48,611 bases of DNA from assembly GCF_946885885.1 (NCBI RefSeq), contig NZ_CAMPHN010000016.1, positions 1-48,611 on the forward strand, given 5' to 3'. This DNA comes from an uncultured Pseudomonas sp. Lineage in GTDB: Bacteria > Pseudomonadota > Gammaproteobacteria > Pseudomonadales > Pseudomonadaceae. Position 1 is the first letter of the stretch. Each line of letters begins with the position of its first letter. Shown here piece after piece: positions 7,532-28,593 of the stretch. The notes beneath the pieces are model-generated. The model made no database searches, was not told the DNA's origin, and saw only the letters and a list, made by a program, of their open reading frames with translations. The translations under genes and the position numbers were made by a program.

Positions 7532-8450
7532 TCAAACCGGCTGTTCCCAGTCCTTGAACCCCCGGTCGATATGCTCGATCCAGGCGCGCACCGCAGGCAG
7601 CATGCCGCGCCTGTGGGTATACACGGCTTGCAGGTGGCCCGGTGGCAGCGTCCAGTCCGGCAGCAGGCGGACCAGGCGACCGTCCTGCAACTCTTCGTGG
7701 CAGTAAGGCGCGGGCAGCATGCTGAAGCCCAGGCCGGCCAGTGCGGCGCGCTTGCGTACGGCGAAGTCCTCGATAGCCAGGCGTGGCTTCGATAGCCAGG
7801 CGTGGCTGCAAAATGGCTTCGCGCACCTGTCCGCTGCTGTCCTGGAAACGCAGGTGAATTTTCCGGTCGGCTTCCAGTGCGCCCATCGCCGGTAATTTAT
7901 GCAGATACTCGAGGGTGTTGACAGTCAGTCCCTCGAGCAGCGCCGGGGCCGCCACCAGATAGGCCTGGGCCGGCAGCAGGCGGCGGCTGATCAGGCTCGG
8001 ATCTTCGTCCTCGGCACTGCGCACGCGCAAGGCCACGTCGATACCCTCGTTGAGCAAATCGACCCGCCGGTTGGTCTGGATCAGTTCCAGCTGCACCTTG
8101 GGGTAGGCCGCGAGAAAACTGACCACCAGCTCCGGGAGCAGGGCGATGCCGCCCGGCGCACTCACGCGCAAACGCCCGCGTGGCTCGCTGGTCAGGCTGG
8201 CGACGGTTTCTTCGGCTTGTTCGGCTTCCAGCAGCATGGCCTGGCAATGGCGTAGGTAGCGCTCGCCGATATCGGTGAGCGCCAGCTTGCGCGTGGTGCG
8301 TTGCAGCAGGCGCGCACCCAGGCGGTTTTCCAGCTCGGCGATGCGTCGCGACAGGCGTGATTTGGGAATCCCGAGCAGACGGCCGGCCGCCGCGAAGCCG
8401 CCGGCTTCCACCACTTTGGCGAAGTAGAACAGGTCGTTGAGGTCATGCAT
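7532..8450 (-). pseudogene. LysR-type regulator broken by 19-bp tandem duplication
   Basis: The gene starts at 8450 with MHDLNDLFYFAKVVEAGGF and keeps a normal LysR helix-turn-helix and most of the co-inducer domain to about LQPRLAIE. The frame is then lost: positions 7770-7788 and 7789-7807 are identical 19-base copies. Removing one copy rejoins the reading frame to a normal C-terminal end (SMLPAPYCHEELQDGRL ... DWEQPV, stop at 7532-7534) and gives exactly 299 residues, the usual LysR length. As it stands, translation runs on in the wrong frame to a stop at 7227, inside the opposite-strand DUF1294 gene (407 residues). Divergent from azoR, so it was presumably that gene's regulator. A sequencing or assembly artefact is possible. 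Confidence 0.85.
7770..7807. repeat. 19-bp perfect tandem duplication inside LysR gene
   Basis: Two adjacent identical 19-base units (TCGATAGCCAGGCGTGGCT). Because 19 is not a multiple of three, the second copy shifts the LysR reading frame. Slippage between the two copies could revert the mutation. Confidence 0.92.
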
Positions 8451-8561
8451 GGTTTTCGTCCTATCAGTGGGACGAACTATCGCATTTATGCCGACTAATC
8501 GGTTATTGGTTTCATAGGTAGCATCTCCAGCATCTTGATCGCCCTTATCCCGGAGAAGGTT
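8451..8561. promoter_or_regulatory. LysR/azoR divergent control region
   Basis: The 111 bases between the divergent LysR and azoR genes hold two small dyads: GTCC-N8-GGAC at 8458-8473 and CCGACTAATCGG (imperfect centre) at 8491-8502. LysR regulators usually bind such dyads between themselves and a divergent target. Which one is the operator cannot be decided here. Confidence 0.4.
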
Positions 8562-9170
8562 ATGAACGTACTGCACCTCGATTCCAGCATTCTTGGCGAC
8601 TCGTCCGCCTCCCGCCAACTCAGCCGCGCCGTGGTCGATGCCTGGCAGGCCGCCTCGCCTGCTATCAAGGTGAGCTACCGTGACCTCGCCAGCGATGCGC
8701 TGAGCCATCTGTCCGCCGCCAGTCTGGTCGCCGGCGGTACACCGGCCGAATTGCGCGATGCGGCGCAAAAGCACGAAGTCGAGCTGGCCGAAGCCACCCT
8801 CAATCAATTCCTGGCGGCCGATGCCATCGTTATAGGCGCGCCCATGTACAACTTCACCGTGCCGACTCAGCTCAAGGCCTGGATCGACCGTATCGCCGTC
8901 GCCGGCAAAACCTTCGCCTACGACGAAAACGGCCCGAAAGGTCTGGCTGGCGGCAAGAAAGTGGTGATCGTCTCCACCGCCGGCGGCATTCACGCCGGTC
9001 AGGCCAGCGGTCAGGCTCACGAGGCTTATCTGGAACTGGTACTGCGTTTTCTCGGCATCACCGACATCGAAATCGTCCGTGCCGAAGGCCTGGCCTATGG
9101 TGAAGAACCGCGCGCCAATGCACTCAAAGGTGCCCAGGCGCAGATCGACGAGTTGTTCGCCGCAGCCTGA
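8562..9170 (+). CDS. azoR: FMN-dependent NADH azoreductase / quinone reductase
   Basis: A 202-residue flavodoxin-fold enzyme that reduces quinones and azo compounds with NAD(P)H. The FMN phosphate loop [15 protein letters not shown] (7-21) and the flavin/active-site segment [18 protein letters not shown] (93-110) are typical of AzoR. The ATG at 8562 follows GGAGAAGG (8552-8559). Divergent from the LysR gene that presumably controls it. Since that regulator is frameshifted, expression of azoR may be altered in this strain. A strong terminator follows at 9186-9216. Confidence 0.9.
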
Positions 9171-9185
9171 CCGCACAGCGCAAAA

Positions 9186-9216
9186 AACAAAGCCCGCTGA
9201 GTCAGCGGGCTTTGTT
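9186..9216. terminator. bidirectional Rho-independent terminator between azoR and ybiT
   Basis: Stem AACAAAGCCCGC / GCGGGCTTTGTT with a seven-base loop. On the minus strand it is followed by a run of T residues, so it ends ybiT; on the plus strand TTTGTTCGTT follows and can end azoR. Confidence 0.85.
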
Positions 9217-9233
9217 CGTTACGCGGTGGCGTT

Positions 9234-10820
9234 TCAGACGAAAATGCCCTGGCTGCGCAGGTAGTCGTCGTAGGTGCCGCTGAAGTCGGTCACGCCGTTC
9301 TCGGAGAGTTCGATGATGCGCGTGGCCAGGGAGCCGACGAACTCGCGGTCGTGGCTGACGAAGATCAGCGTACCCGGGTAGTTTTCCAGGGCCAGGTTAA
9401 GGGCCTCGATGGATTCCATGTCCAGGTGGTTGGTCGGTTCGTCCATCACCAGTACGTTGGGCTTCTGGCAGGCCAGCTTGCCGAACAGCATGCGGCCCTG
9501 TTCACCACCGGACAGCACCTTGACCGACTTCTGAATCTCATCGGAAGAGAACAGCATACGGCCCAGCGCGGCGCGGATGTTCTGTTCGCCCTGGGTCCAT
9601 TGGCCCATCCACTCGAACAGGGTGTCATCGGCCTCGAAGTCGTGGGCATGGTCCTGGGCGTAGTAGCCCACTTCGGCGCTGTCGGTCCACTTGACGCTGC
9701 CGGCATCCGGGGTCATTTCACCGACCAGGGTACGCAGCAAAGTGGTTTTGCCGATGCCGTTGGGGCCGATAATAGCCACGCGCTCGCCGGCCTCCACGGT
9801 GACGCTGAAATTCTTGAACAGCACCTTGTCATCGAAGGCCTTGGACAGCTTGTCGAGGGTCACGGCCTGGCGGTGCAGCTTCTTGTTCTGGTCAAAGCGG
9901 ATGAAGGGGCTGACCCGGCTGGACGGCTTGACCTCGGCCAGCTGGATCTTGTCGATCTGCTTGGCGCGCGACGTGGCCTGCTTGGCTTTCGAGGCGTTGG
10001 CCGAGAAGCGGCTGACGAAGGTTTGCAGCTCGGCGATCTGCGCCTTCTTCTTGGCGTTATCGGCCAGCAACTGCTCGCGGGACTGGGTGGCGGCGGTCAT
10101 GTACTCGTCGTAGTTGCCGGGGAACAGACGCAGCTCGCCGTAATCCAGGTCCGCCATGTGCGTGCACACGCTGTTGAGGAAGTGGCGGTCGTGGGAAATG
10201 ATGATCATGGTGCTGTTACGCGCCGTGAGGATGTTTTCCAGCCAGCGGATGGTGTTGATATCCAAGTGGTTGGTCGGTTCGTCCAGCAATAGCACGTCGG
10301 GATCGGAGAACAGCGCCTGGGCCAGCAACACGCGCAGTTTCCAGCCGGGCGCCACTTCGCTCATCGGGCCGAAGTGCTGCTCCAGCGGAATGCCCAGGCC
10401 AAGCAGCAACTCGCCGGCACGGGACTCGGCGGTATAACCGTCCATCTCGGCGAACTCACCTTCCAGCTCGCCCACCTTCATGCCGTCTTCTTCGCTCATT
10501 TCCGCCAGCGAATAGATGCGGTCGCGCTCGGCCTTGACCTTCCACAGCTCCTCATGACCCATGATCACGGTGTCGATCACGTTGAAGTCTTCGTAGGCGA
10601 ACTGATCCTGGCGCAGCTTACCCAGGCGCACGTTCGGCTCCAGCATCACCTGGCCACCGGACGGCTCCAGATCACCACCGAGAATTTTCATAAAGGTCGA
10701 CTTACCGCAGCCATTGGCTCCGATCAAACCGTAACGGTTGCCGTTGTTGAACTTAACGGAAACGTTCTCGAACAGGGGCTTGGCCCCGAATTGCATGGTG
10801 ATATTTGCGGTGGAGATCAA
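9234..10820 (-). CDS. ybiT: ABC-F family ATPase YbiT
   Basis: A 528-residue protein with two ABC ATPase domains and no membrane segments. First domain: Walker [10 protein letters not shown] (about 34-42) and Walker [12 protein letters not shown]; second: Walker [10 protein letters not shown], signature LSGGEQ and [10 protein letters not shown]. The N-terminus ([18 protein letters not shown]) and length match E. coli YbiT (530 residues). ABC-F proteins bind the ribosomal E site and help translation of difficult sequences. The start is TTG at 10820 with only a weak AGG upstream. The prophage int gene ends 20 bases before this start, so the natural promoter has been displaced; transcription may now come from the phage. 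Confidence 0.9.
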
Positions 10821-10840
10821 AGGGCTTACCTATCAATAAC

Positions 10841-12034
10841 TTAGGGCTTGCTGGATTCTGCTGATACCGATTTGATACCAATATTCAGCTTTTCAAGCTC
10901 GCTCCAATCGGAGTTTGAGTTGATCCAGCGGGCATACGTTGACAGCAGCATCTGCACGCTATGGCCGAGCTGCTGGGAAATAAATGCGGGGTTCATGCCA
11001 GACATTAAGCATATTGTCGCATAGGTATGGCGGCAGTTGTATGGCGGCCGGTAGCGGATAGCCAGTGCCTTCAGGGTTGGACGCCACTGGTGGTGGATGT
11101 TGGAGGTCTCCTTGATGTATTCCTGCCCTTTAGAGGGCGGGAACACATACGGCGTGTGCTTCACTTTGCCAACTCCCAACAGGCGCCGCTCTGCGTAGGC
11201 TTTTGCTATCCAGAGCGCCCGCAGTGCCCGGTTGTTGAGCAGAACGAATCGATCCTTCCCGGTCTTCGTCCGTTCCTCAATTTCGCCCAGGGCGACAGTT
11301 CGGCAGATGTGGGCCTGTTTTCTTCCCCAGTCGATCGCGTCCCAGCGCAGCGCTAGTGCTTCCGAGATTCGAAGCCCGGAAAAGAACAGGAATTCGAAGA
11401 GCGCGGCGTATATCAGACTGGGCCAGTGGCTCGTTTCGTAAAGCCTGTCGATGATCCGCTCAGCCTCGGCCTGCGTGAACGGATCAATTTCCTTTTTGGC
11501 GCGACGCGGCAGCTCGATTGGCTCGGCCGGGTTCTTGGCGATAAGCCCATCGGCAACGGCTGCCTGCATTATCGTCGACAGCTTCACCAGGGCGTTGCGC
11601 TTCACTCCGGGGGATGTCCACTCGATCGCCGCAATGATCCGGCGTAGTGCGGTGGTGGTGATCAGGTCGACCCTGGTCAGAGCCAGGTGCGGCATCCAGT
11701 AGAGATTGAGGGTGCTCTTGTAGTTGAGGCGCGTCCCTGCGGTGATTTCGCGACTGTCCAGCCAGAGCTGGGCATGTTCTCCAAAGCAGGGGATGCCGCC
11801 GGCCGGGATTGCTGAGCCAGGGAAAAGCTCAACGTACTTGGTGTCGTCGAGCAGTCCCATCTTCGCCAGGCGGGTTACCTGATCTCTAAGCTTGGATGCA
11901 GCCGCGATGCCCGTTTGCGTGGTGGGGTACGGGAGCGTTTCGCTGCAGCGTCGTCCGTTCCAGGTGAAGCGGATGCGCAGGGAGTTGCGGAAGAGTTCCA
12001 CCCCGGTGGGTAGACCCATAGACTTTCGAGCCAC
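10841..12034 (-). CDS. int: tyrosine-recombinase integrase
   Basis: A 397-residue phage integrase. The N-terminal arm-binding part (GVELFRNSLRIRFTWNGRRC) is of the DUF3596 type, followed by a SAM-like core-binding domain (about 85-175) and the catalytic domain. Catalytic residues: Arg222 (SGLRISEALAL), probable Lys in ERTKTGKDR (256-262), Arg335 in YNCRHTYAT, His358 (QQLGHS) and nucleophile Tyr367 (STYARW). The first box-II histidine is tyrosine, as often in this subgroup. It lies at the prophage edge next to ybiT. It overlaps xis by 160 bases, so excision and integration are translationally linked. Confidence 0.93.
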   Translation of the reverse strand: MARKSMGLPTGVELFRNSLRIRFTWNGRRCSETLPYPTTQTGIAAASKLRDQVTRLAKMGLLDDTKYVELFPGSAIPAGGIPCFGEHAQLWLDSREITAGTRLNYKSTLNLYWMPHLALTRVDLITTTALRRIIAAIEWTSPGVKRNALVKLSTIMQAAVADGLIAKNPAEPIELPRRAKKEIDPFTQAEAERIIDRLYETSHWPSLIYAALFEFLFFSGLRISEALALRWDAIDWGRKQAHICRTVALGEIEERTKTGKDRFVLLNNRALRALWIAKAYAERRLLGVGKVKHTPYVFPPSKGQEYIKETSNIHHQWRPTLKALAIRYRPPYNCRHTYATICLMSGMNPAFISQQLGHSVQMLLSTYARWINSNSDWSELEKLNIGIKSVSAESSKP

Positions 12035-12198
12035 TCGTCATATCTCCGTTTGCTGTAGATCGTTTTCTTGCCCTGCTTGATCCAGACCCCTGCGGGAATC
12101 TGATTGCGCGCGCGCCGCGCCTGCAGCGCTCGCACTGTGGTGCCTAGTTCCTTGGCCATCTCTTCTTCGCTGAGCTTGTCCTTAGATTCGTTGCTCAT
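11875..12198 (-). CDS. xis: excisionase-like winged-helix protein
   Basis: A 107-residue protein whose first ~60 residues (EEEMAKELGTTVRALQARRARNQIPAGVW then YSKRRYDEWLESLW) form a MerR/excisionase-like helix-turn-helix used to bend att DNA and drive excision. The C-terminal ~50 residues overlap the start of int in another frame and look like low-complexity read-through, so the functional part is probably the N-terminal half. The ATG at 12198 has GAGAGG upstream. Confidence 0.7.
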   Translation of the reverse strand: MSNESKDKLSEEEMAKELGTTVRALQARRARNQIPAGVWIKQGKKTIYSKRRYDEWLESLWVYPPGWNSSATPCASASPGTDDAAAKRSRTPPRKRASRLHPSLEIR

Positions 12199-12276
12199 GG
12201 GGCGATACCTCTCTGCCCCCGCGCGTGGCGCAGGGAGTGGATGTTGGCGGTAGGACGGTTGAACTGCGAGGCCCAG

Positions 12277-12369
12277 TTAGGGCCCCGGAGTAGGTGGTGA
12301 TGTGGACCGCAGGCAGGTGCAGCGGTCGATGCGCTCACCATTGATGCGGTAGTAGGTCGGAGCGTTCAT
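12277..12369 (-). CDS. small phage protein (30 aa)
   Basis: Begins MNAPTYYRINGERIDRC. Its ATG overlaps the stop of the preceding 56-residue gene in an ATGA arrangement, typical of translational coupling in compact phage operons. Two cysteines lie close together (CTC). Function unknown, and it is so short that it could be chance. Confidence 0.4.
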   Translation of the reverse strand: MNAPTYYRINGERIDRCTCLRSTSPPTPGP

Positions 12370-12536
12370 TGGGCACTTCGCCTGGGGAAGAACAGCCAGC
12401 CTCTGGTATAGGCAGCGCGGGCCCAGAGCGGCCAGCGCAGTTGCCCGCTGCGGTCGTTGAGGATTGGGCGTCCGGCCTGTGCGTCCATCCACCCGAGCCG
12501 GGCGAAGTAGCGTTTACCTCTGAGCGGCCTAGTCAT
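12366..12536 (-). CDS. small basic phage protein (56 aa)
   Basis: Begins MTRPLRGKRYFARLGW and is rich in Arg and Trp, suggesting nucleic-acid contact or simply a short structural role. Its start overlaps the stop of the 171-residue gene by eight bases, and its stop overlaps the next start (ATGA). I do not recognise a family. Confidence 0.5.
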   Translation of the reverse strand: MTRPLRGKRYFARLGWMDAQAGRPILNDRSGQLRWPLWARAAYTRGWLFFPRRSAQ

Positions 12537-13044
12537 GGCTGCCACCTTCGCTGTCGATGCCGACGGGCAGGTCTTGGCGCGCCTCCAGGACAAACGGCCG
12601 TGCCGGAATTTCCACGTCCTCGTTATCGCTAGCTGCCATGTGGATGGCCATGCAGTACTCTTCGACGGCTTGGCACTCGGCGTCGCTCCAGCTTGCAATG
12701 CGCTCGGGCGTGATAGCTCCGTCGAAGCTGTCTTCGCTGATCAGCAGCGTGCAGGCAAGGGTGCGCTCGTTGTCGCGCGGCAGTTCCGCTGGCGGATTTT
12801 CTGCGCGGTGGCGGCAGCTGATGCAGCCGTTACCGCAACAACCGCAGAACTTACGGCCGGCGGCCATGCCCTGTTGCTTGGCGAACTGCTCGAGCATCTG
12901 TCGCAGGTCGGTTTTCTCCTGATCGGCCTGGTGGAGTTGGTTGCCATTGTCGAAGCGGCCACCGACCAGCGACCAGCTGCTGGCGAAAACCTGGGCCTGC
13001 TTCATGAGGCTGTCGATGGTTATTGGTTGGTTTTCTGTGGGCAC
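12529..13044 (-). CDS. hypothetical phage protein with Cys cluster
   Basis: A 171-residue soluble protein. A short cysteine cluster FCGCCGNGCISCRH (about residues 66-79) could bind a metal. The C-terminal part is acidic and resembles hypothetical proteins of Pseudomonas phages. It is the last left-arm gene before xis/int apart from two very small coupled genes. Function unknown. Confidence 0.6.
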   Translation of the reverse strand: MPTENQPITIDSLMKQAQVFASSWSLVGGRFDNGNQLHQADQEKTDLRQMLEQFAKQQGMAAGRKFCGCCGNGCISCRHRAENPPAELPRDNERTLACTLLISEDSFDGAITPERIASWSDAECQAVEEYCMAIHMAASDNEDVEIPARPFVLEARQDLPVGIDSEGGSHD

Positions 13045-13110
13045 GTGAATACCTCGCGGCCGAATGCAACTTTCTGCATAATCGGCTGGACTATGTTATG
13101 GAGTTAAGTG

Positions 13111-23400: not shown

Positions 23401-23586
23401 TCAGCTGGCGGCCTTGTGGGGCACGCCGTCCTTGATGCGCTGGTAGACCTCTTCGCGGTGAACTTCGATGCTCTTCGGCGCTTTGACGCCCAGCTTGACC
23501 TGGCCGTACTGGATGCCCAGGACGGTTACGGTGATGTCGTCATTGATGCGAATGGTTTCGCCGATGCGGCGGGTGAGGATCAGCAT
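23401..23586 (-). CDS. csrA: phage-encoded CsrA/RsmA translational regulator
   Basis: A 61-residue CsrA-family protein, normal in length. [14 protein letters not shown] starts the first RNA-binding strand and [11 protein letters not shown] contains Arg44, the key RNA contact. It dimerises and binds GGA motifs near ribosome sites. The ATG at 23586 has AAGGAG ten bases upstream, itself a possible CsrA target for autoregulation. First recognisable gene after the left early promoter, so it is made early in lytic growth and could rewire host or phage translation. A second CsrA-like domain is encoded at 26976-27179. Confidence 0.93.
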
Positions 23587-24769: not shown

Positions 24770-25270
24770 TTATTCGTCGTTATTTTTTATTCCTTCAACT
24801 CTACGTCTTTCTTCAATTTCTTGTTCAATTCTCTCATGTTGTAACTGCATTAAGGTTGATGGCAGTTTCAGTGAGTAAATAAAACAGAATACCGCAAGAA
24901 ATAGATATGCATACTCTACATAGTCATTCGCTTTCCCGTAGTCCTTTTTAAGCAAAAATGAAATGAATATAAGGGCAATTGTTACCAGGTAAGCAGTAAA
25001 CAAAAAGCGATGTCTCTTTAATCGTGCATAAACCGTTGTGCTCCCCAGTCTGGCAACTTGCCAGCTGCCTGCCGGTAAGGACTTAGGGTCGCCAATCATT
25101 GTTATAATCCCCACCAAAAAGCCTGCCAATATCGAATAGGCGGTAACGATTACGTTCAATGCTTCAGCATTAGAGACCATCAGCGGCTTGGCAAAGAAAG
25201 CCCCCAAGGCGCTAATCACTAACGCCAAGAGGAAAAATCTGATCTTTGACCAATCCAATGATTTTTTCAC
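24770..25270 (-). CDS. four-helix membrane protein, RexB-like position and topology
   Basis: A 166-residue membrane protein with four predicted helices (about 10-31, 38-59, 89-107, 118-136) and a charged, probably coiled C-terminus (LQHERIEQEIEERRR). Its ATG overlaps the stop of the 333-residue gene (ATGA), so the two are made together. AT-rich. Size and topology resemble lambda RexB (144 residues, four helices), the membrane channel of the Rex exclusion system, but no sequence similarity is claimed. Likely a toxic or depolarising effector triggered by its partner. Confidence 0.65.
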   Translation of the reverse strand: MKKSLDWSKIRFFLLALVISALGAFFAKPLMVSNAEALNVIVTAYSILAGFLVGIITMIGDPKSLPAGSWQVARLGSTTVYARLKRHRFLFTAYLVTIALIFISFLLKKDYGKANDYVEYAYLFLAVFCFIYSLKLPSTLMQLQHERIEQEIEERRRVEGIKNNDE

Positions 25271-26268
25271 TGTGCTAATACACCGCTGCCTTTCAATTTT
25301 TCGTAGTAATCTTTGAGTTTATCAAAAGCGTCGCTCTTATCAATAGACTTGCCAAATGTTTTTATGTGATAAAAATCCGATACTCTAATCTCCGTTGGCG
25401 TAATAACATTGCCTTGGCCTGTCACAATTTTGAAGCCTTCATCATCATTGGTATCTTCAAATTCTTTAATGATTTCCTCGGACGTTTTCTTTAGTCGCGA
25501 CCGTCCCAGCTCTCCAAATCCAACAGGCTGTCCTTTTTTTCTAGCTGCGCGTCCATCGAAATTCAAAGAAATTTTTATATCTAAATTCTCTTGGTCTTTT
25601 ATTTCGCTTAGCTCTGGATCTTTGGCAAACATTTCTTCAAAGAGTTCAGAGGCCTTCTTTAATAGTTCATCTATCTTCTTCTGCGAGGCTGTGTTTTTAT
25701 TGGATTGTATTTGAGTCATGCTTGCGTCGTATAATGAAGAGTTCAATTCTATGGACTTGACCCCTTCGTTGGCAATCATTGCCATTTTGCTAGCCTTGGC
25801 GATCTTTTCCAGTTCAAAAGAAGCCAGCATCTTGCTGTGACCACACTTCTTGAGAATTTGATAAATATATGAGTGAACAACAGTTTCGCGAACGCCAGAA
25901 GGACATAAAATCAAGTGGTTGTCACGAACCAATACAAAAATATCTCCTCCAAGAAAATCGCGCCCCTCTGACGCTGTTTCCGCATGCAGCTTAGAGCGCT
26001 TAACTCGTTTACTTTTTTCAATGGTCGTTGTCTGTTCGTTTGGTACGTAGCTAGCAATATGTAGGAACAGGCCTTCGCCTGGCCTGGCTTCTACGTCGGC
26101 CCCTCTAAGTTCGCCTTCTCTCGCTATAAAAGTCCGATCTCCGACAGTGGGTAGGCTTTCATGGCAGCTTTCTAGTAAAGCCTGCAAGGTTTTGCTTTTT
26201 TTAAGTTCATCCCATTTTGCACGGCGATAGTAAAATGGGCGTTTTTTAGTTTTCTTATCTGTTGGCAT
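25267..26268 (-). CDS. soluble partner of membrane effector, RexA-like position
   Basis: A 333-residue soluble, Lys/Glu-rich protein beginning MPTDKKTKKRPFYYRRAKWDELKK. No recognised domain or nucleotide-binding motif; the middle (KIDELLKKASELFEEMF) is helical. The gene is AT-rich, has AAAGGGG before its ATG and an AT-rich upstream stretch that could be its own promoter. It is coupled to the four-helix membrane protein and lies in the same-strand block downstream of the repressor, the position of lambda rexA-rexB. A phage-sensing role is inference. Confidence 0.6.
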   Translation of the reverse strand: MPTDKKTKKRPFYYRRAKWDELKKSKTLQALLESCHESLPTVGDRTFIAREGELRGADVEARPGEGLFLHIASYVPNEQTTTIEKSKRVKRSKLHAETASEGRDFLGGDIFVLVRDNHLILCPSGVRETVVHSYIYQILKKCGHSKMLASFELEKIAKASKMAMIANEGVKSIELNSSLYDASMTQIQSNKNTASQKKIDELLKKASELFEEMFAKDPELSEIKDQENLDIKISLNFDGRAARKKGQPVGFGELGRSRLKKTSEEIIKEFEDTNDDEGFKIVTGQGNVITPTEIRVSDFYHIKTFGKSIDKSDAFDKLKDYYEKLKGSGVLAQ

Positions 26269-26319: not shown

Positions 26320-26976
26320 TCACTTACACACGCCCTCGCATGGCTTACCATCTTTATCCCGGTCCAGCCCGTTCATCCCGCACTGCTCAAGGAAAAATAT
26401 GGCCTCCTCGCAGCTATTCATTTGCTTGCAGTATCGCTTGGCGCCGCACTGGTAAGCGCTGGAGCTGGCACTGCTAACCTTGCTGTTAGCCACCTGCTGG
26501 TTGAGCTGTCGCCCGGCCTTACGCCATTCCCACGGCGGAACGATATCGGCCTCGGGAAGCGCCCACAGGCCGCGGCGGGCGGATTTCGCTGCGGACTCGA
26601 CTTGCAGTAGTGACTTGTCGTGGTTGTACTGGCGGTAGACCCAGGCGGCACCGAGGCGAACCATTTCTCGGTTAACGTCTTGGCCGGCCACACTGACGCG
26701 CGCAACCGTCCGGCCGTAGCGGTCGCGATCCTGTACTTGGAGCGTGATGGTCTTTTTGAAGGCGAGATCCGACAGCGCTTGCTTGGCCTTCTGGCCATAT
26801 GGCTGGGCCTTCTCTGGAGTGTCGATTTCGGCTAGGCGAACCTTGAGCTGATTTCGCTCGGCGGTCAGGCAGGTGAGGGTGTCGCCATCGCTGATGCCTA
26901 CCACTTTGCAGCTGATGTCCCCGGCCGCTAGCGATGCTTGGGCTACCAGGCACAAGATAAGTGCTGGCCACCTCAT
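26320..26976 (-). CDS. secreted thermonuclease (SNase) with Excalibur domain
   Basis: A 218-residue exported nuclease. Signal peptide about 1-18; SNase domain about 20-140 with catalytic Arg47 (VRLAE), Glu55 (IDTPE) and Arg89 (RYGR), the same three as in staphylococcal nuclease. The C-terminal Excalibur domain has the calcium-binding LDRDKDGKPCEGVC with paired cysteines. It degrades DNA or RNA outside the cytoplasm. Its ATG overlaps the stop of the CsrA-like gene (TAATG), so the two are co-translated. It lies in the lysogenic block behind the repressor. Confidence 0.85.
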   Translation of the reverse strand: MRWPALILCLVAQASLAAGDISCKVVGISDGDTLTCLTAERNQLKVRLAEIDTPEKAQPYGQKAKQALSDLAFKKTITLQVQDRDRYGRTVARVSVAGQDVNREMVRLGAAWVYRQYNHDKSLLQVESAAKSARRGLWALPEADIVPPWEWRKAGRQLNQQVANSKVSSASSSAYQCGAKRYCKQMNSCEEAIFFLEQCGMNGLDRDKDGKPCEGVCK

Positions 26977-27179
26977 TACGTAACCAGCTCGTCCCTAAGG
27001 ATCAATACCTCTTTAGGTGCTTCAACACCAATGCGAACCTTGTCGCCATGCAGTTCGCCAATATGTAGGGTGATGCCGTCGCGCAGTAGGTGTTGGAGTA
27101 GGGCGTCGGTATTTACGCCTGGGTCGATGGTCATGCGGATCTTTTCGCCTTCACGGCGAGTGAGGGTGAGAAAACCCAT
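26976..27179 (-). CDS. CsrA-like protein from internal start (67 aa)
   Basis: AAGGAGG lies eight bases before an ATG at 27179, inside the longer membrane-protein frame, where the same bases encode Lys-Glu. Translation from here gives a 67-residue CsrA-like protein with family features TLTRREGE and VRIGVEAPKEV plus an insertion absent from ordinary CsrA. The internal site contains GGA, the CsrA recognition core, so the protein could regulate its own synthesis. The gene overlaps the secreted nuclease by one base. Confidence 0.65.
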   Translation of the reverse strand: MGFLTLTRREGEKIRMTIDPGVNTDALLQHLLRDGITLHIGELHGDKVRIGVEAPKEVLILRDELVT

Positions 27180-27569
27180 AGGTAGCGCCTCCTTGCGTTT
27201 AGGTTTAACGAGCACCAGAAACATTGCCAATGCTGCACCAGCGTAGACCAAAGCGTTCATGCTGTTGAGTAACAGCATGAAAACTTCCTTTCTCTGCAGT
27301 GGCTCGGTGCTGCTGGTGAATGCGTATATATCCTTGGTCGATCCGATCGCCACTGCCGCCGCGCCTATGCAGGCGGTGAAGAAAAACAGGAATCGACAGG
27401 CTTTTTTGAATGCAGGGGCTAGGCCTGCGAACCAGGCGGAAACGATCGCTTTAAATCGGGCGCGATGTTCATCTTCTTTTCCGGCATAGCTGAGCACAAA
27501 GCCGAGAATGGTGAAGATCGCCACGATGCCACTAAAGAGGGCCGCAGCCATTGCTGCAAAGGTGCTCAT
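26976..27569 (-). CDS. three-helix membrane protein fused in frame to CsrA-like domain
   Basis: A 197-residue open frame without interruption. Residues 5-29, 59-77 and 96-121 are hydrophobic helices; residues 131-197 are a CsrA-like domain (MGFLTLTRREGEKIRM ... VRIGVEAPKEVLILRDELV) with about 15 extra residues (around DPGVNTDALLQHLLRDG) between the first two strands. The arginine equivalent to CsrA Arg44 is kept (LILRDEL). As a full-length product this would tether an RNA-binding CsrA domain to the inner membrane. A strong internal ribosome site before residue 131 suggests a second, free product. The upstream start has only a distant AAGGAA. Confidence 0.6.
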   Translation of the reverse strand: MSTFAAMAAALFSGIVAIFTILGFVLSYAGKEDEHRARFKAIVSAWFAGLAPAFKKACRFLFFFTACIGAAAVAIGSTKDIYAFTSSTEPLQRKEVFMLLLNSMNALVYAGAALAMFLVLVKPKRKEALPMGFLTLTRREGEKIRMTIDPGVNTDALLQHLLRDGITLHIGELHGDKVRIGVEAPKEVLILRDELVT

Positions 27570-27621
27570 GTTGTTCTCATGCTTCCTTGCGTCAGGTAAG
27601 TTTCACTGCGGCCCTTGGGGC

Positions 27622-27816
27622 CTACTCTGCTCGCCTCGGGTAGGGCCGGCAGTAGAGCTTAAGAACATAGAGGGCGTCGCGTGATTTCGCTTTGTCCAGA
27701 TTCTGGAACATGCATTCTTCCCAGGTGTCTGGGGCGCGCCAGGACTGCCAGCCCAGGACGATGGCCATGCCGATCAAGGCTCCGGCTATGCCGGCAGATA
27801 GCATTTTCTCTTTCAA
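27622..27816 (-). CDS. small membrane-anchored protein (64 aa)
   Basis: One N-terminal hydrophobic helix (about 5-24), then a short domain with two cysteines (EECMFQ, LYCRPYP) that could form a disulfide outside the membrane. The start is TTG at 27816 with AAGGCGG upstream, or ATG at 27804. Second in the block that begins with the repressor. Function unknown. Confidence 0.55.
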   Translation of the reverse strand: MKEKMLSAGIAGALIGMAIVLGWQSWRAPDTWEECMFQNLDKAKSRDALYVLKLYCRPYPRRAE

Positions 27817-27868: not shown

Positions 27869-28510
27869 TCAGAGCTTCATCTTGGCTTCTTTCACGACCC
27901 CGATAAATCGGCAGTTGCCGTTGATCGGGATCATCCGGTATGCGGGGTTGAGCGGCTTCAGGTAGAACTGACCGGCATCGTTAACCAGCTTCTTGAAGGT
28001 GGCTTTTTCCTCGCTGTCCAGCTTGGCGACCACCAGGTGGCCAGGCTGCGCCTCTACGCCGGTATCCACCAGGATCAGCATGCCTTCTGGGATGCTTTGG
28101 CCGGATGGCGCGGTCATCGAGTCGCCGTCGACCTCGAGCCAGAAGGCCGGCCCCTTTGCTTTGTAGTCGCTCAGTTCTGAACGATCTTCGGCGCCGGGTT
28201 CGTAAGGCTGCACTGCATCGCCCCAGCCGCCGGCGACCACGCTACTGATCACCGGATAACGGAAGTATCGATCAGGTTGGGATGCGAGGGTGACGTTGCT
28301 GCCGACGTCTTCTTGCGAGGCAGGAACACTCAGCGGCGGCATGCCTACAACCTCAAGCATTCGGTTGATATCGGCAAGCTTCGGTTCGCGCCGGCCGCCC
28401 AGCCAGTGACCGACGGCACCCTGGGTCACGTCGACCCTTTCGGCCATCTGCTCTTGGGTAATGCCCAGCACTTCCATGCGGGCCTTCACTATCGAAATCC
28501 AGTCATTCAT
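27869..28510 (-). CDS. CI-like prophage repressor (S24 autoprotease)
   Basis: A 213-residue repressor. The N-terminal helix-turn-helix is about 15-55 (GITQEQMAERVDVTQGAVGHW). The C-terminal LexA/S24 domain has the Ala93-Gly94 cleavage site (SVVAGGWG), nucleophile Ser131 (VDGDSM) and probable general base Lys173/174 (ATFKKLV). RecA-stimulated self-cleavage would link prophage induction to DNA damage. The ATG at 28510 is chosen because the domain begins there; upstream codons lie in the operator. It faces cro across 113 bases. Confidence 0.9.
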   Translation of the reverse strand: MNDWISIVKARMEVLGITQEQMAERVDVTQGAVGHWLGGRREPKLADINRMLEVVGMPPLSVPASQEDVGSNVTLASQPDRYFRYPVISSVVAGGWGDAVQPYEPGAEDRSELSDYKAKGPAFWLEVDGDSMTAPSGQSIPEGMLILVDTGVEAQPGHLVVAKLDSEEKATFKKLVNDAGQFYLKPLNPAYRMIPINGNCRFIGVVKEAKMKL

Positions 28511-28526
28511 GGCTGGAATCCTACAG

Positions 28527-28593
28527 ATCGTATTAATCCCTTCAATGCACATATCGTATTGATTGCTTGCCTGTTTCAAATACAAAATGTATT
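28527..28593. promoter_or_regulatory. right operator/promoter region between repressor and cro
   Basis: A perfect 15-base operator AATACAAAATGTATT (28579-28593) is identical to one at the left promoter. Two ATCGTATT half-sites (28527-28534 and 28553-28560) could be weaker operators. Rightward promoter candidates are TTGATT (28559-28564) with TACAAA (28581-28586), or TTGCCT (28567-28572) with TATTTT (28590-28595); both overlap the operator. The repressor promoter is not resolved. Confidence 0.65.

Follow-up and report, generated by a model that had tools for sequence, protein, structure and literature searches.

An in-frame fusion of a membrane domain to an RsmN-type CsrA domain in a Pseudomonas temperate phage, with a candidate internal start for the free domain

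CsrA/Rsm proteins are known to be small free dimers that are antagonised mainly by sRNAs. A stretch of 48,611 nucleotides from an uncultured Pseudomonas sp. (hereafter the window, meaning the whole stretch that was analysed) was described in a first-pass annotation, made from the letters alone, as containing one frame that joins membrane helices to a CsrA-like domain, with a second start inside that frame. This raises the questions of whether the two parts are truly one protein and whether the CsrA part would be made tethered to a membrane, free, or in both forms. Matches to integrase, RecT, terminase, portal and tail-fibre proteins identified the window as a temperate phage.

One frame for a membrane domain and an RsmN-type domain

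The gene lies on the minus strand, a point on which the annotation was silent, and runs as a single open frame from an ATG at 27569 to a TAA at 26976 (26976..27569), encoding 197 amino acids; the same stretch contains several stops in frame 1 of the plus strand. Residues 1–130 (27180..27569, minus strand) form a membrane domain that matched no Pfam, PHROG or NCBIfam family, and they are followed by a CsrA-type domain (26976..27179, minus strand), which would be a free protein of 67 amino acids if started at ATG 27179. The observation of a membrane/CsrA fusion with an internal start was confirmed.

Proteins of the RsmN/RsmF type are free and single-domain, and act as dimers with ANGGA RNA as ligand; the full-length product of the window departs from the single-domain layout, and its free form would start at ATG 27179. 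Residues 131–197 matched Pfam CsrA (PF02599) with 45.3 bits for the domain and 40.7 for the full-length protein (cut-off 27), and fell short of the equivalog cut-offs that NCBIfam sets for CsrA proper (37.3 and 36.1 for the domain versus 73 and 70.1 bits). They aligned ungapped, over positions 1–67, with the sequences of solved P. aeruginosa RsmF (4k59) and RsmN (4kji), with E values of about 2e-12. By this alignment the domain is of the RsmN/RsmF type, with a helix between strands 2 and 3 and without a C-terminal helix. The insertion of about 15 residues, which had been placed between strands 1 and 2, falls instead between strands 2 and 3 and, because the domain matches the RsmF/RsmN sequences end to end, corresponds to the known beta2–beta3 helix of RsmN described in the available part of PMC3791407 (domain residues 20–34, 27078..27122, minus strand), followed by a Gly35-Ile36 motif.

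According to the same part of PMC3791407, this helix alters the path of the chain, the Gly-Ile motif and an Arg8-Glu64 pair are typical of RsmN, the RNA surface is formed by Arg9, Arg49, Arg56 and Arg62, and RsmN functions as a dimer. The window keeps R8, R9, G35, I36, R49, R62 and E64, with K at 56. The RNA-contact arginine said to be retained is thus present as Arg62 (fusion residue 192; codon at 26994..26996, minus strand; role from the part of PMC3791407 available). A set of 27 standalone RsmN loci, P. aeruginosa PA7 RsmN being one of them, was hand-picked from a larger set; near-copies were left out, as were a number of copies that were weaker or unusual (L094, L099, L101, L111, L123, L127, L128, L139, L143 and L146 included). 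Arg8, Arg62 and Glu64 were each found in all 27, and the Gly-Ile motif in 26. In L101, the first strand of an RsmN-like frame is followed by a series of Gly-Glu repeats, and its genome also has a normal copy, L099. RsmN/RsmF of P. aeruginosa (PA7 locus L004; 4k59, 4kji, 4krw) shares with the window the whole 67-amino acid domain, the strand 2–3 helix, the Gly-Ile motif, the Arg8-Glu64 pair, Arg9, Arg49 and Arg62, and the lack of a C-terminal helix. The two are 43% identical and differ in that the window's domain is fused behind a membrane domain, is carried by a phage and has an internal start.

Three membrane helices had been claimed for the first part of the protein, and Kyte-Doolittle hydropathy likewise predicted three segments: residues 8–26 (27492..27548), 57–75 (27345..27401) and 103–121 (27207..27263, followed by KPKRK), all on the minus strand. 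A conserved loop, SSTEPLQRKEVF (residues 86–97, 27279..27314, minus strand), precedes the third segment and is recognisable by alignment in membrane-only relatives too. By this simple measure three segments were found in only 3 of the 15 rows of the family alignment and two in the remaining 12, in which helix 1 fell below the same threshold. The first loop of the window's protein carries six Lys/Arg and three Asp/Glu; because of this positive loop and of KPKRK after helix 3, simple hydropathy fits an N-out, C-in topology with a cytoplasmic RsmN domain. Given the same positive loops, the 12 two-segment rows would have both of their ends inside. PHROGs contained no family for the membrane part of the window, for P0006 or P0002, two of the fusion clusters described below, or for four membrane-only relatives.

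A conserved family with intact and degenerate domains

The cluster to which the window's protein belongs, P0001 (five members, 39 contigs), is 92% identical over the whole length, with about equal identity in the two halves (93% and 93%). More distant in-frame fusions, of 31–34% identity, were found in 3 of 398 Pseudomonadaceae genomes (G008, G386 and G318), any match at all being found in 81 of the 398. A profile built from five fusions (A3), with which the best 7997 candidates by shared words were scored, retrieved 15 protein clusters. Twelve of them (P0001–P0012) are full-length fusions of 179–198 amino acids, P0013 is a shorter piece, and P0014 and P0015 open with an RsmN-type stretch with no membrane domain ahead. 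Named sources of fusions are Pseudomonas multiresinivorans (P0002), Pseudomonas sp. G34 (P0009) and P. nicosulfuronedens (P0010). The search for homologues with both parts in one frame, proposed as a check in the first-pass annotation, thus returned 12 full-length clusters in addition to the distant fusions of three genomes, and the two parts are not always split among homologues. Since full-length fusions are conserved across diverged relatives, the fusion is not a chance read-through; judged from these sequences, it is real and conserved, and the protein family is old.

Alignment of 15 rows (A4) resolved three clades: clade A, with the window and P0001, in which the RsmN domain is intact; clade B, with P0002, P0005 and P0010; and clade C, with the other ten. 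All 13 rows that make up clades B and C lack Arg8, Arg9 and Arg62; two of these rows have Lys at column 62, where the clade C alignment is uncertain. Comparison of the C-terminal domains of clades B and C with RsmN by hhalign gave 56.5 and 45.3, respectively, the best of 100 column shuffles each reaching 18.0 and 24.2, and by this profile comparison both domains are RsmN-derived; direct hhalign of the clade B against the clade C domain was weak (probability 14). Because Arg62 is missing from all 13 rows, tethered RNA binding would not be a conserved property of the family.

Alignable membrane domains also occur alone. Five such genes (L153–L157) encode proteins of 112–130 amino acids with an SSEPxxRxEVF-like loop, recalling that of the window, and differ from the window in lacking the RsmN domain; inspection by eye of three frames over the next 300 bases revealed no RsmN part after any of the five. 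In a tree of membrane domains with 21 rows, from which the near-copy P0003 and the long frame L138 were left out, 14 fusions grouped apart from seven membrane-only rows with support of 87/83, and the fusion grouping was recovered in 86% of 200 bootstrap trees. This separation favours a single origin, and the simplest reading, tentative given the long branches, is one fusion event, after which clades B and C lost the RNA-contact residues. Regarding the settings of these genes, P0002 (L151) is part of an island that also encodes an MvaT homologue and an integrase-repeat protein, and the membrane-only L153 (6413–6805, plus strand) lies near an Avs4 homologue (7965–13061, minus strand) and a gene that is MvaT-like by eye.

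Other searches delimited the known range of the family. With A4, no full-length fusion beyond those of G386 and G318 was found in 398 and 298 genomes of one genus, two overlapping draws in which the best 8–11 first-look candidates were scored per genome, and samples of 390 genomes from the order and 369 from the class yielded matches to the RsmN part only, in four genomes and one genome, respectively. Eight genomes of the genus of G110 contained RsmN copies in three cases and no fusion. No relatives were found in IMG/VR with the full-length protein, the membrane part or A4, nor in phage records with the window's fusion, one membrane-only relative or one clade C fusion; the only phage match of the RsmN part, vsMR, was set aside as a different CsrA variant by eye. 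Two Curtobacterium CsrA proteins (38–39%) were matched by the RsmN part in a plasmid search. A scan of genome contigs with the full protein returned no relatives. With the RsmN alignment, many of the best 80 of 360 loci came from planctomycete MAGs, and these matches probably lack the helix, as they are about 16 codons shorter; among the loci of the RsmN-alignment scans, L002–L004 were the ones read in detail. Weak matches to the membrane part in frames of about 500 amino acids were discarded as hydrophobic chance; the two that were read are sodium/solute-symporter-like and, by eye, presumably PutP-like.

The internal start and the neighbourhood of the gene

Within the frame, AAGGAGG is located 8 bases ahead of ATG 27179 (27188..27194, minus strand). 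This had been singled out as a very strong ribosome site, and its duplex energy with the 16S tail, −11.4 kcal/mol, agrees with that description; the full-length start reached −5.4 kcal/mol, so that tethered protein could be made in the lesser amount. Among 25 gene starts chosen by hand, 24 had a weaker site than the internal one, none of 132 internal in-frame ATGs within those 25 genes had one as strong, and an equal or better site preceded 4 of 1402 ATGs on both strands, ATG 27179 counted in. As the heptamer occurs three times in the window against 5.07 expected, a chance level, it is uninformative alone, and the informative part is its placement. ATG 27179 moreover coincides with the start of RsmN proteins. 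Taken on this evidence, the internal start of the window looks genuine.

It is not conserved across the family. Of three distant fusions available as DNA, L109 has GTT at the corresponding position, L091 has no methionine, and L107 has an ATG without a ribosome site; the P0001 protein retains the Lys-Glu-Ala and Met residues. Dual products may therefore be peculiar to the window's clade: a free product is likely only there, and the tethered form would be general to the family. Feedback through the GGA of the internal site, suggested in the first annotation, gained no specific support. The GGA lies in a stem, the lowest-energy fold at the site was no stabler than shuffles (z = 0.4), and, because every AAGGA ribosome site contains ANGGA, its presence is not specific evidence of feedback. 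Two further features were noted in the leader of the full-length start: the stretch CGCAAGGAAGCA (within 27550–27620, minus strand), identical to one in the leader of the standalone RsmN of L002, and an ORF of only four codons (ATG to TGA) overlapping ATG 27569.

The order of genes on the minus strand is repressor, small ORF, fusion and nuclease. The repressor (27869..28585, start codon uncertain) combines HTH and Peptidase S24 domains according to Pfam and PHROG. The small ORF (27622..27816) encodes 64 amino acids, or 48 from an inner ATG, with one hydrophobic stretch by eye, and belongs to no Pfam, PHROG or NCBIfam family. The nuclease (26320..26976) has SNase and Excalibur domains by Pfam and a start resembling a signal peptide by eye, and its ATG overlaps the stop of the fusion in TAATG. 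The same phage carries a second, canonical CsrA of 61 amino acids (23401..23586, minus strand), recognised by Pfam, PHROG and NCBIfam. A promoter scan gave 4 sites where 3.5 were expected and placed none in the interval from repressor to fusion; the number of terminator-like sites, 9 with 6.8 expected, was likewise close to chance. Elsewhere in the window, an overlapping two-gene unit (24770–25270 and 25267–26268, minus strand) encodes a hydrophobic protein and a PHROG 26543 protein, with weak matches to the PADLOC candidates PDC-M67B and PDC-S11.

Comparable arrangements were seen in related loci, whose gene order was derived with a crude gene caller. L149, in G318, has the order repressor, fusion, SNase-Excalibur gene, with one or two small ORFs between the first two. 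Standalone RsmN genes adjoin an S24-type repressor in L002, L102, L115, L116, L117 and L118 and lie one gene away from it in L128/L148 and L170; they have the same domain as the window (68% identical in L002) in a similar place, and differ in having no membrane domain in the frames read. L148 combines a repressor of the window's type, an SNase-Excalibur gene and three RsmN-type genes without membrane domain; L170 has such a repressor, an Excalibur-like frame and two such RsmN-type genes; L169 has SNase and RsmN; and both L169 and L170 also have a canonical CsrA like that at 23586–23401 of the window. Repressors were tested with Pfam in L002, L102, L148 and L159 (which covers L116), and the others were assigned by similarity. 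RsmN-type genes recur beside phage-type repressors, in a set of loci that is no unbiased sample because they were found with window-like queries. Two of the three RsmN-type copies of L148 (5573–5878 and 5280–5543, minus strand) have tails that by eye resemble Excalibur calcium-binding motifs, Excalibur not being reported there by Pfam and the SNase-Excalibur gene lying nearby. In L149, where a clade C fusion is located, a frame some 0.6 kb beyond the SNase gene (10057–10500, plus strand) consists by eye of tandem RsmN-like halves, with the arginine kept in the second half only and a Pfam CsrA match under the cut-off.

Tethered, free or both: readings of the locus

Phage-borne CsrA/Rsm homologues have reportedly been surveyed by Sobrero and Valverde in 2020. 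In the part of PMC7366521 available, CsrA-family genes are carried by Pseudomonas phages, all eight P. aeruginosa phages of the survey have an rsmM-type allele and one rsmN lies in a possible genomic island; the terms 'fusion' and 'transmembrane' have no occurrence in the text of that survey. No membrane-fused CsrA/Rsm protein was found in the open-access literature, as represented by titles and abstract openings of part of the matching papers. As the comparisons above indicate, the type of domain is already known, namely RsmN/RsmF of the CsrA family, and what appears new is that its fusion to a membrane domain is conserved, that one clade has an internal start, and that other clades lack the RNA-contact arginine.

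The explanation that we prefer, at slightly better than even confidence, is that of a lysogeny-operon gene giving tethered and free RsmN that pair through dimers. The family would consist of membrane proteins of Pseudomonadaceae mobile elements, with an RsmN-type domain on the probably cytoplasmic end of a small membrane domain. Being downstream of the S24 repressor, the fusion would probably be expressed in the lysogen, as gene order suggests. Initiation at ATG 27569 would yield membrane-tethered RsmN, and initiation at the strong site before ATG 27179 would yield free RsmN from the same frame. Since RsmN works as a dimer, mixed free/tethered dimers are possible; through such pairs, part of the phage or host RNA bound by RsmN could be held at the inner membrane, or else the tethered subunit could set or buffer the amount of free RsmN. 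This explanation builds on what the sequences show: a single frame, a domain of the RsmN type that keeps RNA-contact residues, a fusion that is conserved, a strong site for internal initiation and the order of the genes. From these we infer that both products are translated, that the C-terminus faces the cytoplasm, that fusion and repressor are transcribed together, that dimers exchange subunits and that RNA is tethered, as well as any influence on lysogeny or superinfection.

The main rival, which overlaps with the explanation just given and which we hold to be somewhat unlikely, makes the membrane domain the working part, for instance in superinfection exclusion or anti-phage defence, and the RsmN domain a dimerising or structural module whose RNA binding persists as a relic in the clade of the window. 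We know of no exclusion function for the membrane domain, and PADLOC contained no match for the window's fusion; still, membrane-only relatives of 112–130 amino acids exist, one of them near an Avs4 homologue, and the missing Arg8, Arg9 and Arg62 in 13 of 13 rows favour this rival for clades B and C. According to the available part of PMC3791407, RsmN R62A suffers a >1,000-fold drop in RNA affinity and retains the dimer, which points the same way. The window and P0001, however, retain the RNA-contact residues, position 56 being Lys instead of Arg, and in the window the free domain has a strong start of its own. A combined scheme, which we regard as doubtful, would have this mobile-element family couple post-transcriptional control to the membrane, with different roles for the clades: in that of the window, free and membrane-bound RsmN would pair and keep bound mRNA at the inner membrane; in the others, a tethered RsmN dead in RNA binding would trap Rsm proteins of host or phage by dimerising with them, making it a protein with which prophages antagonise the Rsm pathway.

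The imbalance between the two starts could also mean that two genes are stacked, with free RsmN from 27179 as the working product and a membrane frame joined to it by loss of a stop, the fusion protein being incidental. Besides the far stronger internal site, RsmN proteins of 68% identity that stand alone in L002 and L003, preceded by stops, and an L002 leader, CGCAAGGAAGCACCA-ATG, that resembles the window's CGCAAGGAGGCGCTACCT-ATG, would agree with this. It is nonetheless distinctly unlikely when set against both parts sharing one frame across three diverged clades, three distant members that as DNA have no working-looking internal start, and the lack of any RsmN part by eye in three frames over 300 bases after five membrane-only genes. 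Conversely, only the full-length protein might be made, the internal site being a side effect of Lys-Glu-Ala codons that precede a methionine. The chance-level count of the heptamer in the window and the three distant fusions that do without an internal start speak for this, which we consider improbable because such a site was found at none of the 132 internal in-frame ATGs of the 25 hand-chosen genes and at 4 of 1402 ATGs overall, 27179 included, and because the internal start coincides with that of RsmN.

A conserved membrane-tethered RsmN in prophages would represent a new layout of translation control, and could reveal a membrane-based route by which lysogens retune the Rsm networks of their hosts. 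The family, with its intact and degenerate domains, would moreover offer a natural series for separating tethering, dimerisation and RNA binding.
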